Position numbers and translations under genes: made by a program. DNA of 22,606 nucleotides from a virus, in the IMG/VR virus record IMGVR_UViG_3300022594_000031, positions 1 to 22,606 of that record; one strand, 5' to 3'. This document shows positions 11,061 through 22,606 of the stretch, one piece after another (position 1 is the stretch's first letter; the number at the start of each line of letters is the position of its first letter). The notes below the pieces were generated by a model. It was not told the origin of the DNA, ran no database searches, and saw only the letters and a list, made by a program, of their open reading frames with translations.

Positions 11061-11084
11061 GGCCCAGGGCAACCTGGGCCTTTT
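11061..11084 (+). terminator. Strong intrinsic terminator after the capsid gene
   Basis: GGCCCAGG (11061-11068), loop GCAA and CCTGGGCC (11073-11080) form a perfect eight-pair GC-rich hairpin followed by TTTT. It lies 20 bases after the capsid stop and separates the head genes from the exported PA14 protein. Confidence 0.93.
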
Positions 11085-11116
11085 GCCTTTGTAGGGACTC
11101 TTTGAGGGCTAGGACT

Positions 11117-11133
11117 TATACTTAAAGCCTAGT
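11117..11133 (+). promoter_or_regulatory. Candidate promoter (-10-like TATACT) for the PA14 gene
   Basis: TATACT (11117-11122) lies 32 bases behind the capsid terminator and 26 before the TTG start at 11148. AGCCTAGT (11126-11133) follows after three bases, similar to the element before terL. No good -35 is present. Because the upstream terminator is strong, a promoter in this 63-base gap is expected. Confidence 0.35.
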
Positions 11134-11147
11134 CAACGGGAGATTGA

Positions 11148-13478
11148 TTGAGAGCACTGCGTTTATTCGCAGCACTATTTGTAACACTACTCGCAGGTTT
11201 ATACCCACTAATACTCGCCACACCAGCACACTCGGATAGTCCTGTCATTTTGTACAGCGACTATCAGCAAAAGGTTTCGTCCGCTCAGGCGGCGATAGCT
11301 GCTGACCAGACCGCCACACAGCTGGCTCAGCAGATACTTGACTCTGCTACAGCTGCAAAAGCTGTGGCAGACCAAGTCGTAACAACAGACTCTGCAGCAC
11401 TTACCGCTGCACAAGCAGCGTATGACAATAGCTCAGTAACCGACGGCTCTACCGTTACTGCAGGTCTTATCGCACAGGTGTACAACGACTCACCTCAAGG
11501 CGGCTCACCAACAATTAGCCAATCCACTCTAGTAAAAACGTTGACTGTTTCTCAGATTAACTACAACTGGGGCCAAGGCGTCATATTAGGAACCAACCTA
11601 TCTGACCGTGTAGGCGTTCAGTTCAGCGGCTACATAACCTCACCTACGACTACAAGCTACCGATTCTACGCCCCTGCTGATGACGGTGCCCGAGTATTTA
11701 TTAACGGCGTAATGATTATTAACGACTGGTTTGATAAAGGTGGCGGCGGCTCTACCTCAGCGGCTATCCCATTTACAGCGGGAGTTCCCCAGCAAATCAC
11801 TGTCTGGTATTACGAGAACGGCGGTGGAGCGGCAGTATCTTTGTACTGGAATAACGTCGTTGTCCCAGCCTCAGCCTTCTCTACTGGGGTAGTTCATATG
11901 GTTAAAGACGCCAGCTTACTTCCCGCTATTCAAACAGCTCAATCTAAATACAACGCTGATGTGGCAGCTGATGGCGTAGCTGCTCAAGCTGTTACTGACG
12001 CACAGGCTACTTTGTTATTAGACCAGTCCCAGCTTGCTGCAGCCCAAGCAGTACTGGCAGCTATACCACCGCTAGTTATCAACACCCCTACAAATCTACA
12101 AGAGACCTCACAGGGCGGCTCAGTTACCTTAACGTGGGATGCGCCAACCTCAGGATTAATCCCAGAGCGGTATGCCATCTTCTGGACCAATGGAACTTCC
12201 GCTGGGTGGGGCGTGGCATCAACCACTAACTCTTTAACTTTAACGCCTGATATGTTTGCAAGCACAGGCGGCTGGAATAGCACTTATAGCTTTACTGTGC
12301 GCTCAGATAATGACACGGCGCAAATGTACTCTAATCAGTCAGCTTCTGTGACGGTGTATCTTGCGGACCCGAACCCACCAGTCGTCGTAGTGATTCCTCC
12401 ATTGCCCGTCGTGACTCCTCCTGCCACGGAAGAGACGAGTACCGTTGTTGACTCTTCAACCGCTGTTCCAGCTCCCACTGTTTCGCCCAGCGATACTCCT
12501 GCACCGTCAGATACACAGACAGTAGAACAAACCCCAACGTCACCAACACCAGACCCAGTACCTCAGACACCTGACACCTCCACGGTAGTTTCTACGCCCG
12601 ATACATCAACAGTTATTGTTGATACCTCCACAGTTATTACTGATACATCTTCCAGCGAAGTTGTTCAGCAGCCTGTCGTGACGCCTCCCGTACCAACTCC
12701 GACTCCTGCCCCCGCGCCAGAACCTCAGCCTGCGCCTGCTCCGCAGCCTGCGCCACAACCTGAACCCACTCCAACTCCTGAGCCTGCTCCTTCGCCAGAG
12801 CCGTCACCTGCTCCTGCACCTCAGCCACCCCCTGACCCTGTTCCATCTCCAGACCCATCTCCTGCACCCACGCCGCAGCCAAGCCCAGCACCCGCACCTG
12901 CTCCTTCGCCAGAGCCTGTACCCGCTCCTGCGCCCAGTCCAGAGCCGACGCCAACTCCTGAACCCGTAGTTGAGCCATCTAGTCCTCCTGTAGTACCTGG
13001 CCTTGTTCCTAATAATCCTGACCAATTGTCCGATACTACACCAAAAGAAGCGCCAGCAGAAGTACTTGTGGCGCACGTACAAGTAGACCAAGTAGGTGTG
13101 GAGAACGGTGGTATTGCGTTCTACGGAACTAAATCCGCTCCACAAGTTGTAGGTGAAGACGGCAAGTTAACTCCACCTGCTCCGCCTCCTGGTTCTGGTC
13201 TCCCGATTCCTCCAGACGCCATCACGGTGGCTGCGACCTTTATCGGTCAGCCAGGAGGCACCACATTTAACTCACCTGACGTTGCTGTTCCAGTAGTGGC
13301 AAAGCCTGTAACAGGTGCCCTTGCCTCAGTACCTGGAGTAGAGGCATTAAACAAGTCCTTCGTAGCGGTTGAGAACATCGGAAATGACATGTCTCCAATT
13401 ACCCGCAAGAAGGCAAAGAAGATTCTGGTCGCAACATTGATTGCTGGTCAGATTGCCCAACTGAGAAGGAGAAACTAA
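11148..13478 (+). CDS. Exported PA14/Fn3 protein with proline-rich stalk
   Basis: A 776-residue protein starting at TTG 11148; GGGAGA lies just upstream and an in-frame TGA precedes it. Residues 1-29 are a Sec signal peptide (basic start, long hydrophobic core, T-P-A-H-S cleavage region). Two Ala-rich helices (about 40-95 and 255-305) flank a PA14 domain (about 104-245) with 'YRFYAPADDGARVFING' and 'WYYENGGGAAVSLYW'. A fibronectin type III domain follows (about 311-404). Residues about 408-630 are a Pro/Thr/Ala/Glu stalk with D-T-S-T-V repeats, then P-A-P/P-E-P repeats. The last 25 residues are a short hydrophobic helix between K-K-A-K-K and R-R-R-N, like a tail anchor; there is no LPXTG. PA14 domains usually bind carbohydrate. 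It could be a host-surface adhesin, a receptor mask or a virion fibre. The signal peptide favours export from the infected cell. Confidence 0.85.
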   Translation: MRALRLFAALFVTLLAGLYPLILATPAHSDSPVILYSDYQQKVSSAQAAIAADQTATQLAQQILDSATAAKAVADQVVTTDSAALTAAQAAYDNSSVTDGSTVTAGLIAQVYNDSPQGGSPTISQSTLVKTLTVSQINYNWGQGVILGTNLSDRVGVQFSGYITSPTTTSYRFYAPADDGARVFINGVMIINDWFDKGGGGSTSAAIPFTAGVPQQITVWYYENGGGAAVSLYWNNVVVPASAFSTGVVHMVKDASLLPAIQTAQSKYNADVAADGVAAQAVTDAQATLLLDQSQLAAAQAVLAAIPPLVINTPTNLQETSQGGSVTLTWDAPTSGLIPERYAIFWTNGTSAGWGVASTTNSLTLTPDMFASTGGWNSTYSFTVRSDNDTAQMYSNQSASVTVYLADPNPPVVVVIPPLPVVTPPATEETSTVVDSSTAVPAPTVSPSDTPAPSDTQTVEQTPTSPTPDPVPQTPDTSTVVSTPDTSTVIVDTSTVITDTSSSEVVQQPVVTPPVPTPTPAPAPEPQPAPAPQPAPQPEPTPTPEPAPSPEPSPAPAPQPPPDPVPSPDPSPAPTPQPSPAPAPAPSPEPVPAPAPSPEPTPTPEPVVEPSSPPVVPGLVPNNPDQLSDTTPKEAPAEVLVAHVQVDQVGVENGGIAFYGTKSAPQVVGEDGKLTPPAPPPGSGLPIPPDAITVAATFIGQPGGTTFNSPDVAVPVVAKPVTGALASVPGVEALNKSFVAVENIGNDMSPITRKKAKKILVATLIAGQIAQLRRRN
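12360..13000 (+). repeat. Proline-rich stalk coding repeats
   Basis: This internal part of the PA14 gene encodes four D-T-S-T-V-like units, then a long run of P-A-P, P-E-P, P-Q-P and P-S-P units. At the DNA level a stretch near 12782 recurs near 12896 (CTGCTCCTTCGCCAGAGCC in both). Such repeats are prone to length change by slippage or recombination. Confidence 0.8.
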
Positions 13479-13660
13479 TGAAGTTCATTAGAGAGCTCAT
13501 CCAAGACCTAGCTAACCAGATTTGGACCTTCCTGGGTCTCTTCGTAGGTTGGCTGGTTCTGACTGGCTCGGCAAAAAAGGTAATCGGAGAGTCGATTTTA
13601 TTCTCGACCTTCCTTTGGATTACATCGTTCAGAATAAGAAACCCTAAGGAGAAGAAGTAA
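13478..13660 (+). CDS. Small two-segment membrane protein of the lysis cassette
   Basis: A 60-residue protein overlapping the PA14 stop by one base and the next gene's start by one base. It contains two hydrophobic stretches (about residues 15-30 'IWTFLGLFVGWLVLTG' and 38-50 'ESILFSTFLWITSF') and a basic C-terminus (R-N-P-K-E-K-K). Size, topology and position before a second membrane protein and the endolysin fit a holin or antiholin. There is no family signature that decides between them. Confidence 0.65.
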   Translation: MKFIRELIQDLANQIWTFLGLFVGWLVLTGSAKKVIGESILFSTFLWITSFRIRNPKEKK

Positions 13661-14061
13661 TGAAAGACAACATTAAGCTATTCTGGAACGTCCTTATGCG
13701 CATCGTCGCGGCGTTCACAGCAACCGCACTGGGAGTTATCGGTGCTGGAGCAATCGCCCACATCTCTACTCTTAAAGCAATGACCGTAGCAGGCCTTACT
13801 GCCTGTGCAACTGTTGTAGAGAAGTTAGCTCGTGGCTTCATGGACGACGGCAAGCTATCACTTGATGAAATTAACGCAGCATTTGCTGCTGTTGACACCC
13901 AGGCTAAGACCGCAGCAGACCTTCAGGTAGAAGCTCGTCAGTCAGGCACAGACCTCACTGTCTCTGCCGTTGATGGCTCTGTTACACCCGCAGTTGCCCC
14001 TGCAGCACCTGTTGCCCCAGCTGTAGAATCAGCTCCAGAAGACGACCCACACTACAACTAA
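13660..14061 (+). CDS. Holin candidate (r1t-type-like)
   Basis: A 133-residue protein with AAGGAG before its ATG. It contains hydrophobic segments at about residues 10-33 ('MRIVAAFTATALGVIGAGAIAH') and 38-52 ('KAMTVAGLTACATVVEKLA'). The soluble C-terminal half has a short acidic 'DDGKLSLDEINAAF' stretch and ends in an Ala/Pro-rich tail. Position eight bases before the endolysin and two N-terminal membrane segments fit actinophage holins. It would form the membrane lesion that times lysis. The D-x-G-K-L-S-L-D-E-I segment resembles an EF-hand-type loop, but one loop alone is not proof of calcium binding. Confidence 0.7.
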   Translation: MKDNIKLFWNVLMRIVAAFTATALGVIGAGAIAHISTLKAMTVAGLTACATVVEKLARGFMDDGKLSLDEINAAFAAVDTQAKTAADLQVEARQSGTDLTVSAVDGSVTPAVAPAAPVAPAVESAPEDDPHYN

Positions 14062-14069
14062 GGAATAAC

Positions 14070-14873
14070 ATGGCATTAGGAAATGTAGGAAACCCAGTAC
14101 CACCAGTAACGGACGCCCAGCCAGGAACAGCAGCTCGTATGCTTGAAGTGGCTAAGTCACAGGTTGGTGTTATCGAGGGACCAAAAGATAACGAAACACT
14201 TTACGGCGCTTTTACCAAGGCTAACTTCCAAGCATGGTGCGGAAGTTTGATGATGTGGTGCGCTGATAAGGCAGGAGTAAAGCTTCCTAATACTGTCTAC
14301 ACCCCAGCGGGTGCAGCAGCGTTTAAGAAGATGGGCGCTTGGGCAGATGCGGCTAACGCACACCCACAGCCAGGAGACCTTGTCTACTTCTCCTTTATTC
14401 CAGCCGCTAAGCCAGATAGCCCAATTCAGCACGTTGGTATTGTGGTTAAGGACAACGGCGATGGAACCATCACTACTGTAGAGGGAAACACCACACCAGA
14501 CTCAAAGCCAAAGGGCTCACCTAATAACGGTGGCGAGTGTGCTATGAATGTCCGCGGCTACAAAGTTGATAACAAGCGCCACTTGTGGGCATCTGTTGTT
14601 GGCTTCGGTCGCCCCTCATACACAGATGGGGTCCATGCTAGCCCAGCTACACCTGTAGTTAAGCAAGTTCCCCCATTCCCAGGTCAAGTAAAGCCTGGCG
14701 ATACTGGAGATGCCGTAAAGCTTATCCAAGAAGCTTTGGACCTTGACGCTGATGGTCAATATGGCCCAGCTACCAAGAAGGCTATCTTGGCTATTCAAGA
14801 CGCTCACCCTGGTCTTGATTCCAACGGAATTGTTGGTCCAAAGACCTGGCAGGAAATCTTTAATCACGCATAA
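14070..14873 (+). CDS. Endolysin: CHAP amidase/peptidase with peptidoglycan-binding domain
   Basis: A 267-residue protein. The N-terminal CHAP domain (about residues 25-180) has catalytic Cys57 in 'AWCGSLMMWC', His121 in 'QHVGIVV', and the third polar position around Glu138/Asn140 ('VEGNT'). The C-terminal domain (about 205-265) is a PG_binding_1 repeat ('VKPGDTGDAVKLIQEAL ... DGQYGPATKKAI ... GIVGPKTW'). CHAP enzymes cut the peptide or the amide bond of peptidoglycan; which one cannot be told. There is no signal peptide, so release needs a holin, consistent with the two membrane-protein genes directly upstream. AAGGAA precedes ATG 14070, and an intrinsic terminator follows. Confidence 0.93.
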   Translation: MALGNVGNPVPPVTDAQPGTAARMLEVAKSQVGVIEGPKDNETLYGAFTKANFQAWCGSLMMWCADKAGVKLPNTVYTPAGAAAFKKMGAWADAANAHPQPGDLVYFSFIPAAKPDSPIQHVGIVVKDNGDGTITTVEGNTTPDSKPKGSPNNGGECAMNVRGYKVDNKRHLWASVVGFGRPSYTDGVHASPATPVVKQVPPFPGQVKPGDTGDAVKLIQEALDLDADGQYGPATKKAILAIQDAHPGLDSNGIVGPKTWQEIFNHA

Positions 14874-19194: not shown

Positions 19195-22100
19195 ATGGCA
19201 CAAAAGATTCAATTACGTCGCGGCATTTCCACCACATGGACCTCCGACAACCCAGAGCTAGCTCAAGGTGAAATCGGCTTTGAAACCGACACTGGAAAGT
19301 TTAAAATTGGTGATGGCATTCACCTATGGCGTGACCTTGACTACGCAACAGTAACCCCAAATGATATTGCCGATGAGGTCGCAAGTGCTATTTCAGCCGC
19401 GGCACTCCAATCAACTGATGACCTTCCCGAAGGCATACAGAACCTTTACTTCACAGTAGGGCGTGTGGCAGATGCCCTTAATAGTGGCACGCACACAAAT
19501 ATTTCTTTTACTTACAACTCTGGCTCAAAAACAATCGATGTTGACGTACCTACTGTACAAGGACTTAATGGACTTCAAGGTGCTGTTGGTCTTCAGGGAA
19601 TCCTTGGAGCGCAGGGCTTAACTGGCTCACAAGGCGTTGTTGGTATTCAAGGTGCATCAGGTACGCAAGGAATTACTGGTGCGCAGGGCACTACTGGTAC
19701 ACAAGGTTTTGTTGGTACACAGGGCGCAAATGGAACGCAAGGTGCTCAAGGTACTCAAGGCACTCAGGGTCTGCAAGGTATCCAGGGCACAACAGGTATT
19801 CAAGGTAATTTTGGAACGCAGGGTACAGCAGGTGCACAAGGCACACAGGGCGTACAAGGTACACAGGGCGTTAGCGTTCAAGGTACTGCTGGTACCTCTG
19901 TAGTTATTCTTGGTTCGTACAGCACTCTTGCTGAATTAGAAGCGGCGCACCCAACAGGTAATAACGGCGATGGATATATCATCGACCCTTATCTCTATGT
20001 ATGGGAAGGCGCATCGTGGGTTAACGTTGGCGTTATCCAAGGCCCACAAGGAACTCAAGGAACAACTGGTTCACAAGGCGTACAGGGTACAACAGGTATC
20101 CAAGGACAGGTTGGGTTGCAAGGTGTTCAGGGAATCACAGGTTCTCAAGGAACTACTGGGTCACAGGGAACTGTCGGAGCCCAAGGAGCAACAGGAACCC
20201 AAGGCACGCAAGGTGTGCAAGGTTTACAGGGTACTCAAGGTAATAACGGTACCCAAGGTACAACAGGCATGCAGGGTACAACAGGTACCCAAGGATTTAA
20301 CGGCATTCAAGGTATCACTGGTGCACAAGGTACACAAGGTACTCAAGGAGTCCAGGGCAACCAAGGAACTCAGGGTGTACAAGGCAATCAAGGTACAACA
20401 GGAATTCAGGGCGCCCAAGGAACTCAAGGAGTGCAGGGAAATCAAGGTACTCAGGGAGTTCAAGGTAACCAGGGTACAACTGGTCTACAGGGTACTCAAG
20501 GAGTTCAAGGCACACAAGGAACGCAAGGTGTTCAAGGAGCCCAAGGCTCTCAAGGATTACAAGGTCTTCAGGGTATTCAGGGTATTCAAGGCCCAGTCTC
20601 TTCACAGAACGCTCACCAGTCTGTTCACGCAGTTTCGGCCACCGCACTTCCTAATACACCTACCTATACCGCAGGTTCTGCTGATGCTGAAAACGGGTAC
20701 GGCGTAGGAGCATACCTACAATCAAGCACAAATGCGGCTTTAGTAATTGATGGTTACACATTAGGTGTTGGTGACCGTGTACTTGTTGCTGGTCAAGCAA
20801 CAACGCTTAATAACGGCATCTATGTAGTAACCGCTGCTGGTAAGAACAACCCAGGCGGTAGTGCGTGGAAGTTAACTCGCGCTACAGATGCGGATAACCA
20901 CGTTGTTGGTCAGGTAGAAGAGGGCGATTACGTCTACGTTCTTCATGGAACCACCTATGTCTCAACTGCTTGGATTATGAACGCTGATGGGTCTAATCCT
21001 GACGGCTCTATCATTATTGGAACTGACCCTATTACATGGACTCAAACATCTGGTGTTGGTGTTCAAGGTGCAACTGGTGCTACTGGCGCTGGTGGAGTTA
21101 TCTCTAACTATGGCTCTTTCTATTCAACCGTAGACCAAAGCGCAACAACAGGTGGAGAGGCAGTTCGCTTTGATACAACTAACATTCAAAATGGTGTAAC
21201 CCTTGTTACAGACGGAACGCACTTAACACGCTTAACTGCGCCAGTAACAGGTACTTACCTCATTGACTTTGTAGGACAACTTGCTCTTACGGGCGCAGGA
21301 AACCACCAAGCAAACTTCTGGCTTGTTAAAAACGGCGCAACCCAAGTATCAACAGCGTTTGACTCTGTTGTTTCATCTACCACTCCAACACTTACTGGTT
21401 GGACATGGCAGGTTAACGCAACTGCTAACGACTATTATGAAGTATTCTGGAACGGCGACAGCACCAACCTCTACCTTAACGCTGTATCAGCCGCATCTCC
21501 AGTTCCACAGGCAGCGGGCGCAGTTATCCGCATGTCCCAGATTAACTACCAAGGTATTCAGGGAACAGTTGGATTACAGGGAGCACAAGGTACGCAAGGA
21601 ATTCAAGGCACCCAGGGAATCCAGGGTGTACAAGGAATCCAGGGTGTACAAGGAACACAAGGTATCCAAGTTCAAGGTACTCATGGTATTCAAGGCGTAC
21701 AAGGCGTTCAGGGTACTCAAGGCATCCAAGTACAAGGTACTCAAGGTGTCCAAGGAAACCAAGGAACCACAGGTATCCAGGGAACTACTGGCACTCAAGG
21801 TCTTACTGGTACACAAGGTGCGGTAGGAACTCAGGGAGCAACTGGTACACAAGGATTTACAGGAAGCCAAGGAATCACGGGTACCCAAGGACTTACAGGA
21901 ACGCAAGGAACACAGGGTGTTCAGGGTGTTCAGGGCGTTCAAGGACCTCAAGGTACGCAAGGTGTTCAGGGTAACCAAGGAGTTCAGGGACCACAAGGAA
22001 CTACTGGTATTCAAGGTCTACAAGGTCTGCAGGGAACTCAAGGATTTACTGGCGCACAAGGAACTACAGGTACCCAAGGTACAACTGGAACTCAAGGTTT

Positions 22101-22606
22101 TACTGGTACTCAGGGCGCTGTAGGTTCACAAGGAACCACTGGTTCACAAGGTGCACAGGGTACGCAAGGTTTACAAGGCACTCAAGGTACTCAAGGTACT
22201 CAAGGTCTGCAGGGTGTTGCGGGTGACCACTACAGCACTTCCTCTACTACTTCCTTTACCCTCAGCTCTAGTGGTACAACAACAATCACTATTGCTCAAA
22301 ACTATCAGTACTCCACAGGCCAAAACATTGTGGTTGCTTACGACGCAACACATATTGTTTACGGAACTGTTACCTCCTACACGCCATCTACAGGCTCATT
22401 AACATTTAGCAATGACCGTATCGTCGGTACTGGAACATTTGCTACATGGTCAGTTAACCTTGACGGCGCTGTCGGTATCCAGGGTGTTGTTGGTCCACAA
22501 GGTACAACAGGTGCACAAGGCACCACAGGTACTCAGGGAACTACAGGTACTCAGGGTCTTACTGGTCTACAGGGACTTACAGGCTCACAAGGTACGACAG
22601 GCACAC
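19195..22606 (+). CDS. Giant collagen-like multidomain fibre protein (3' end outside window)
   Basis: ATG 19195 has GGAGGAA eight bases upstream. The frame stays open to the last base, giving at least 1137 residues. Residues 1-50 ('IQLRRGISTTW ... LAQGEIGFETDTGKFKIGDG ... W') match the Mtd_N-type fibre N-terminus. Gly-X-Y repeats rich in Gln and Thr occupy about 123-235, 283-466, 786-1008 and 1093 to the edge. Between them lie, in order, a 'YIIDPYLYVWEGASWVNVG' module (about 237-280) and a 'VGDRVLVAGQATTLNNGIYVV' module (about 469-620). A C1q/TNF-like jelly-roll candidate follows (about 635-784; 'YLIDFVGQLAL', 'NFWLVKNG', 'YYEVFWNGD'), then a Ser/Thr-rich beta domain (about 1011-1090). A long trimeric rod with globular knobs is expected, for adsorption or surface decoration. 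Proline is nearly absent from the repeats. Confidence 0.88.
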   Translation, partial: MAQKIQLRRGISTTWTSDNPELAQGEIGFETDTGKFKIGDGIHLWRDLDYATVTPNDIADEVASAISAAALQSTDDLPEGIQNLYFTVGRVADALNSGTHTNISFTYNSGSKTIDVDVPTVQGLNGLQGAVGLQGILGAQGLTGSQGVVGIQGASGTQGITGAQGTTGTQGFVGTQGANGTQGAQGTQGTQGLQGIQGTTGIQGNFGTQGTAGAQGTQGVQGTQGVSVQGTAGTSVVILGSYSTLAELEAAHPTGNNGDGYIIDPYLYVWEGASWVNVGVIQGPQGTQGTTGSQGVQGTTGIQGQVGLQGVQGITGSQGTTGSQGTVGAQGATGTQGTQGVQGLQGTQGNNGTQGTTGMQGTTGTQGFNGIQGITGAQGTQGTQGVQGNQGTQGVQGNQGTTGIQGAQGTQGVQGNQGTQGVQGNQGTTGLQGTQGVQGTQGTQGVQGAQGSQGLQGLQGIQGIQGPVSSQNAHQSVHAVSATALPNTPTYTAGSADAENGYGVGAYLQSSTNAALVIDGYTLGVGDRVLVAGQATTLNNGIYVVTAAGKNNPGGSAWKLTRATDADNHVVGQVEEGDYVYVLHGTTYVSTAWIMNADGSNPDGSIIIGTDPITWTQTSGVGVQGATGATGAGGVISNYGSFYSTVDQSATTGGEAVRFDTTNIQNGVTLVTDGTHLTRLTAPVTGTYLIDFVGQLALTGAGNHQANFWLVKNGATQVSTAFDSVVSSTTPTLTGWTWQVNATANDYYEVFWNGDSTNLYLNAVSAASPVPQAAGAVIRMSQINYQGIQGTVGLQGAQGTQGIQGTQGIQGVQGIQGVQGTQGIQVQGTHGIQGVQGVQGTQGIQVQGTQGVQGNQGTTGIQGTTGTQGLTGTQGAVGTQGATGTQGFTGSQGITGTQGLTGTQGTQGVQGVQGVQGPQGTQGVQGNQGVQGPQGTTGIQGLQGLQGTQGFTGAQGTTGTQGTTGTQGFTGTQGAVGSQGTTGSQGAQGTQGLQGTQGTQGTQGLQGVAGDHYSTSSTTSFTLSSSGTTTITIAQNYQYSTGQNIVVAYDATHIVYGTVTSYTPSTGSLTFSNDRIVGTGTFATWSVNLDGAVGIQGVVGPQGTTGAQGTTGTQGTTGTQGLTGLQGLTGSQGTTGT
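19561..19890 (+). repeat. Collagen-like Gly-X-Y tract 1
   Basis: About 110 residues of Gly-X-Y with Gln dominating one variable position (G-T-Q, G-A-Q, G-I-Q). Synonymous codons (GGT/GGA/GGC, CAA/CAG) vary from unit to unit, so the DNA repeat is less exact than the protein repeat. It ends in a 'GVSVQG' interruption. Confidence 0.9.
20041..20592 (+). repeat. Collagen-like Gly-X-Y tract 2
   Basis: About 184 residues of uninterrupted Gly-X-Y, mainly G-T-Q, G-V-Q, G-N-Q, G-I-Q and G-T-T, with only the first and last units holding proline ('GPQ', 'GPV'). The other frames stay open here because the nine-base period avoids stops. Confidence 0.9.
21550..22226 (+). repeat. Collagen-like Gly-X-Y tract 3
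   Basis: About 225 residues of Gly-X-Y. Two two-residue interruptions break the phase near 21661-21675 and 21721-21735, both reading G-I-Q-V-Q-G, so the segment between them is itself duplicated. It ends in 'GVAGDHYS'. Confidence 0.9.
22471..22606 (+). repeat. Collagen-like Gly-X-Y tract 4 (runs off the window)
   Basis: At least 45 residues of Gly-X-Y, starting 'GAVGIQGVVGPQG' and continuing G-T-T-G-T-Q to the last base of the window. It shows that the fibre gene continues beyond the right edge. Confidence 0.88.

Follow-up and report, generated by a model that had tools for sequence, protein, structure and literature searches.

A few lipoproteins that enterobacterial phages encode are known to remodel the surface of the infected cell. 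The Llp proteins of T5 and BF23, lipoproteins that these phages place in the cell envelope, block receptors, exclude superinfection and presumably spare progeny on debris, and related phages carry non-homologous variants (PMC4728585). Here, we analyzed a 22,606-nt (22.6-kb) virus fragment (IMG/VR record IMGVR_UViG_3300022594_000031, positions 1 to 22,606; hereafter, the window), in which an intact ORF on the (+) strand, from 11148 to 13478, encodes an exported, stalked PA14-Fn3 protein of 776 aa (the stalk protein), as judged from the ORF reading, Pfam, AlphaFold2 (AF2) and fold comparison. By analogy with Llp, it could be a phage-made envelope protein that covers receptors, with blocking as our proposal; it differs from Llp in lacking a lipobox, in being large, multidomain and stalked, in its apparently actinobacterial hosts and in having a gene that adjoins lysis genes, whereas the Llp gene adjoins the receptor-binding gene. 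Like LPXTG-type Gram-positive adhesins, the stalk protein starts with a signal peptide and an N-terminal binding head, continues in a wall-spanning Pro-rich stalk and closes with a C-terminal hydrophobic run and a basic tail, but it is phage-encoded, has no sortase motif, belongs to a family in which the hydrophobic run measures 11–15 aa and comes with a dedicated two-TM partner. We consider it fairly probable that the stalk protein is a modular adhesin or lectin that is displayed by the infected actinobacterial cell and held there by a new anchor pair.

The stalk-protein gene begins with a TTG codon preceded by a good ribosome-binding site, and residues 1–29 (11148 to 11234, + strand) form a Sec-type signal peptide with an h-region and a small-residue cleavage site. 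A crude, home-made Sec rule (n-region, h-region and small-residue cleavage site) passed 42 of 42 distinct complete N-termini of the family compared with 9 of 163 neighbouring gene clusters taken as controls, in agreement with the signal peptide claimed in an earlier note on this DNA, and by this rule every complete family member carries one. A lipobox-like match was found in only 1 of 51 N-termini. Upstream, a terminator-like hairpin lies 3′ of the major capsid gene (11061 to 11091, + strand; GGCCCAGG-GCAA-CCTGGGCC followed by TTTTGCCTTT); its RNA fold is stable (z = −3.5), which bears out the strong terminator described before. The evidence for a promoter of the gene's own, also claimed, is divided: a sigma-70 scan found no site ahead of the window's gene, but a putative −10 element, TATACT, is located 25 nt upstream of the start (11117 to 11122, + strand), and 27 of 51 relatives have a perfect TATAAT 25–43 nt upstream of theirs.

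The head of the stalk protein consists of a PA14 domain (residues ~105–250) set between long helices (~36–93 and ~255–304; together 11253 to 12059, + strand), followed by an Fn3 domain (residues ~315–412; 12090 to 12383, + strand). The PA14 domain matched Pfam PF07691 with an E-value of 6.7e-10 (39.4 bits versus a curated cut-off of 24), and AF2 models the head (pLDDT 89.3) as a PA14 domain carried by a helical hairpin and followed by Fn3, so the helix-flanked PA14 and Fn3 read earlier from the sequence hold. Structure comparison with PA14 lectins, proposed at that time as a check, likewise returned the PA14 fold: the closest solved structure was RsgI3 (Z = 20.6, rmsd 1.7, 138 aligned), followed by a sugar-bound Marinomonas PA14 lectin (Z = ~16.4) and by yeast flocculins and Epa adhesins (Z = 14–15). 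The Fn3 part (model residues 283–381), in which AF2 places the strands, aligned with solved structures of Fn3 type at Z = ~13.

Residues 178–180 of the window protein read DDG, and the same triplet occurs in 38 of 38 members that have the NWG motif, supplying the Asp-Asp (DcisD) calcium site of calcium-dependent PA14 lectins. Since DDG is widespread among PA14 domains in general, it is no proof of sugar binding; by analogy with solved lectins, we infer that the PA14 head may bind sugars or glycans. The stalk protein resembles MpPA14, Flo5 and Epa1 in its PA14 fold (Z = 14–16), in the DDG motif and in a head that emerges from a split carrier element, here the helical hairpin, whereas carrier, stalk and anchor are unrelated to theirs and its sugar binding is putative.

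Behind the head, the proline-rich stalk predicted earlier (~220 residues) is indeed present, with 70 prolines among its 202 residues (413–614; 12384 to 12989, + strand). Within the Pro-rich stalk, a deletion of 38 aa separates the near-identical proteins of L001 (6515–8845) and L002 (290–2506); stalk length therefore varies among close relatives. A low-complexity spacer precedes the C-terminal domain in all family proteins whose length allows a judgement, and most spacers are of two unrelated chemistries, either Pro-rich or rich in Ala, Lys, Glu, Asp and Gln.

The conserved part of the protein is this C-terminal domain, the putative anchor (residues 615–776; 12990 to 13475, + strand), whose ~160 aa show a mean column identity of 66% in a 79-sequence alignment. 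AF2 models it as small and mostly irregular, ending in a 26-residue helix (SPITRKKAKKILVATLIAGQIAQLRRR; pLDDT 79.5, pTM 0.67). The model has no fold match in the PDB, the profile has no PDB sequence match at an E-value of 1, and neither the domain nor the two-TM partner receives a name from Pfam, PHROGs or NCBIfam. The short hydrophobic C-terminus with flanking basic residues noted earlier corresponds to a 14-aa run between TRKKAKK and RRR; across the family the run measures 11–15 aa, is uniformly hydrophobic and lies between two basic clusters. An amphipathic C-terminal helix was considered and is ruled against by low hydrophobic moments. Strict LPXTG patterns hit only 2 of 110 family proteins, both in the local variant LPGTG. 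The earlier note took the protein as a complete display design with a simple C-terminal TM anchor; this part of the claim is doubtful because the run is short for an ordinary TM helix and because conservation extends over a ~160-aa domain and its obligate two-TM partner. The terminal helix and the two-TM partner together would then form the membrane anchor.

The partner gene (13478 to 13660, + strand) encodes 60 aa with two predicted TM helices, and its ATG overlaps the stalk-protein stop at 13478. The overlap with a holin-like gene reported before is thus real, but the overlapped gene is this partner; the holin-like protein itself (133 aa, hydrophobic N-terminal half, putative holin) follows at 13660 to 14061 (+ strand) and precedes an endolysin with CHAP and PG-binding domains found by domain search (14070 to 14873, + strand). 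PHROGs labels the holin-like protein "nuclease" (phrog_26427), a function to which its hydrophobic sequence does not point. In 77 of 81 loci, the partner (~60 aa) starts no more than 3 nt from the stalk-protein stop; three of the remaining four are cut by a contig end, and the fourth has its partner ~120 nt further on. Wherever sufficient DNA lies downstream, practically every locus has the partner; searching back from the partner, in turn, recovered the C-terminal domain in the preceding gene of each newly found locus where that gene was readable, and no solo partner. Judged by sequence and comparison, then, the partner is obligate for the stalk protein, and the signal peptide and the modular head-and-stalk anatomy stand on the same ground.

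With its two hydrophobic segments, the partner has the small size and TM hairpin of a holin, but it tracks the stalk protein and not the endolysin, which lies within 2 kb in only 14 of 21 records. Nor does the pair resemble spanins, an inner- plus outer-membrane pair of diderm hosts: it includes no lipoprotein, and whiB, present in 20 of 23 records, indicates actinobacterial hosts. T4 RI and T serve as a model for a further role, in which occupancy of the head outside the cell would be relayed through the C-terminal domain to the partner, acting as holin or antiholin, and would set the time of lysis. Export, strict pairing with a two-TM protein through overlapping genes, proximity to lysis genes and weak start codons would all suit such a sensor; since the cassette has a separate holin-like gene, we regard it as very improbable and favor an anchoring partner. 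A possible fused form of the partner occurs in the metagenome-assembled actinophage DSL-LC01 (PMC10611076), whose protein WJZ48438, likewise an exported stalk protein with Fn3, ends in hydrophobic segments but lacks the conserved C-terminal domain. In hhalign, the WJZ48438 C-terminus aligned with the partner at E = 3e-4 and a probability of 40%; its score was 23, and the best of 26 controls reached 15. This weak match is suggestive of a fused two-TM partner but no proof of one, and TM sequences give false similarity. A search for further fused proteins of this kind returned one near-identical copy only.

Several relatives in IMG/VR matched the whole window protein in the last ~160 residues only. 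Searches with the C-terminal alignment and with the 60-aa partner gave 126 loci (80 of them retrieved) and 134 loci, respectively, and together 110 readable family proteins, all from collections of metagenomic fragments and some near-identical or cut by contig ends. The heads that precede the shared C-terminal domain in these 110 proteins are PA14, Fn3, SUEL lectin or an unnamed beta module; among 47 members, Pfam named PA14 in 30, Fn3 in four and SUEL lectin in one, with the others left without a Pfam name. A tree built from the C-terminal domain (~160 columns, modest branch support, head types assigned by motif) requires at least about 15 head changes and at least 7 stalk changes; the program counts 17 head changes, a figure that includes wrong labels given by the motif rule, to L021 and L073 at least. 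The window and L006 share 48% identity in the ectodomain, 78% in the C-terminal domain, 93% in the partner and 97% in the endolysin; thus, the head diverges fastest. The stalk gene was present in one copy per record in all 23 records tested.

Beyond these contigs, the C-terminal domain and the partner had no match among 50,697 annotated phage records, and a search seeded with a pattern yielded no true relative in 84,980 species genomes; the sole match there, L088, was rejected as chance, as it overlaps a ferritin-like gene on the opposite strand. The only significant matches to viral models (BFVD) were three family members from uncultured Caudovirales phages, A0A6J5PD65, A0A6J7WJ61 and A0A6J5Q5W7, which carry the same domain (68–76% identity) and are named after their SUEL lectin, PA14 and Fn3 heads while the domain itself is unnamed. 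The family is not described in the open-access papers covered by our literature search. We can propose, as somewhat less likely than not, a phage-specific display system of its own kind in which swappable glycan-binding heads and stalks on a ~160-aa anchor domain with its obligate two-TM partner re-coat the cell before lysis; that the anchor domain is nearly invariant and, with its partner, not known elsewhere is part of the same guarded reading.

Swapped heads, a layout equal to that of Gram-positive adhesins and nearest solved PA14 domains that include adhesin and flocculin lectins would also suit adhesion, whereby the same anatomy would stick the infected cell to host cells, particles or grazers. 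Release of progeny would then occur close to new hosts, or the cell would be shielded until it lyses; if linkage to lysis genes means late expression, little time would be left for either, and we hold this role to be possible but rather unlikely. The scheme that we prefer begins with the signal peptide, which would send the stalk protein through the Sec pathway; the C-terminal domain, probably with the co-translated two-TM partner, would hold it at the membrane, and the long stalk would carry the PA14/Fn3 head through or past the cell wall, where the head would bind glycans. With host glycans covered, neither the infected cell nor its debris would adsorb siblings and fresh progeny, in the manner of the T5-type receptor-blocking lipoproteins. 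The benefit of display, be it receptor masking at and after lysis, adhesion or help with lysis, is one that we infer; covering of receptors or glycans is, by analogy, the most likely of these, although we advance it only tentatively. Export and surface display, as suggested in the earlier note, are well supported: each complete member has a signal peptide, stalks are interchangeable and heads are lectin-like.

The window places the stalk gene between capsid and lysis genes, as noted before, but this position is peculiar to its lineage. The window capsid protein shares ~73% identity with its counterpart in Borockvirus-type Streptomyces phages, which have other genes 3′ of the capsid gene in place of the stalk-protein cassette, and ~12 kb separates cassette and capsid gene in a relative whose capsid protein is 94% identical. 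A homologue of the window capsid protein was detected in 10 of the 23 records, all of which encode the C-terminal domain. A glycan-binding decoration of the virion head or tail, with the signal-like N-terminus as incidental, would match the gene's place after the capsid gene in the window and the use of such domains on virions, as suggested by a fibre-region gene of G017. However, virion decorations have no Sec signal and a fixed place among head genes, whereas the stalk protein has a signal peptide in all complete members, a capsid neighbourhood that is not conserved, a C-terminal domain common to phages with no detected homologue of the window capsid protein, and an obligate TM partner. Signal peptide and TM partner thus disfavor a virion function, which appears very unlikely, and a protein displayed on the cell remains our choice. 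In G017, the sole PA14 is in that fibre-region gene, which has no signal peptide, and the stalk protein has Fn3; one host glycan bound by both would explain the arrangement, a speculative idea since the G017 PA14 is only ~35% identical to the PA14s of stalk proteins.

By gene order, the stalk gene is associated with lysis genes and not with the capsid gene. Among the 21 records that reach 40 kb, 14 have the endolysin within 2 kb of it (we derived the distances by hand, using two tables), and the block of stalk protein, partner, holin-like protein and endolysin recurs in L006 at a different place in the genome. This linkage could indicate a lytic role in which stalk protein and partner would help to breach the envelope: either the cationic C-terminal helix or the partner, which is holin-sized, would act on the membrane while the head holds the wall. 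However, the partner tracks the stalk protein, the other 7 of the 21 large records keep the pair with the endolysin 3–19 kb away, and swapping of heads and stalks would be unexpected for a lysis protein. That the pair is kept even at a large distance from the endolysin makes a lytic role less likely, and we rate it as improbable. The comparative evidence slightly favors a glycan-binding role over a lytic one, and lysis-linked genes with fast-changing lectin-like heads fit receptor blocking and adhesion alike.

The carriers appear to be phages of lake actinobacteria, whiB (found in 20 of 23 tested records) being an actinobacterial marker; a tail-sheath search (PF04984) matched 3 of 24 records, which settles nothing on morphology. 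More than 100 viral contigs, apparently of actinobacteria-infecting phages, thus encode one modular, fast-changing lectin-like protein per genome, the conserved C-terminal part of which belongs to no named family. If the proposed role is true, the heads would offer a handle on the surface glycans that decide infection in hard-to-culture actinobacterial hosts, and the anchor pair would be one whose mechanism could be studied in monoderm bacteria.

Several other features were observed. Further signal-peptide genes lie beside the stalk gene in L003 (5646–6695), L025 (3349–4419), L054 (5316–5858) and relatives, and Pfam, PHROGs and NCBIfam give these clusters no name. Another signal-peptide gene, present in nine loci (L024, 7964–8851), begins like a secreted subtilisin-type protease, as named by eye, and an HslV/proteasome-like peptidase gene is found near the stalk gene in 25 loci (L038, 3339–3890, and relatives). 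In the window, a long collagen-repeat fibre gene (19195–22605) runs off the contig. The stalk gene of L059 (3290–6043) is apparently split by a frameshift, with the signal-peptide start in a separate ORF. Finally, start codons of 51 stalk-protein genes, assigned by motif, comprise ~30 TTG, 7 ATA, 3 ATT, 4 GTG and 7 ATG, one ATA having been re-read by eye as TTG. The stalk-protein gene avoids ATG, whereas 72 of 77 partner genes begin with it. The ATA and ATT starts are unusual and have good ribosome-binding sites and conserved signal-peptide beginnings; the start-codon cases include the window (11148), L014, L027, L036, L044, L053, L060, L061, L068, L074, L087 and others.
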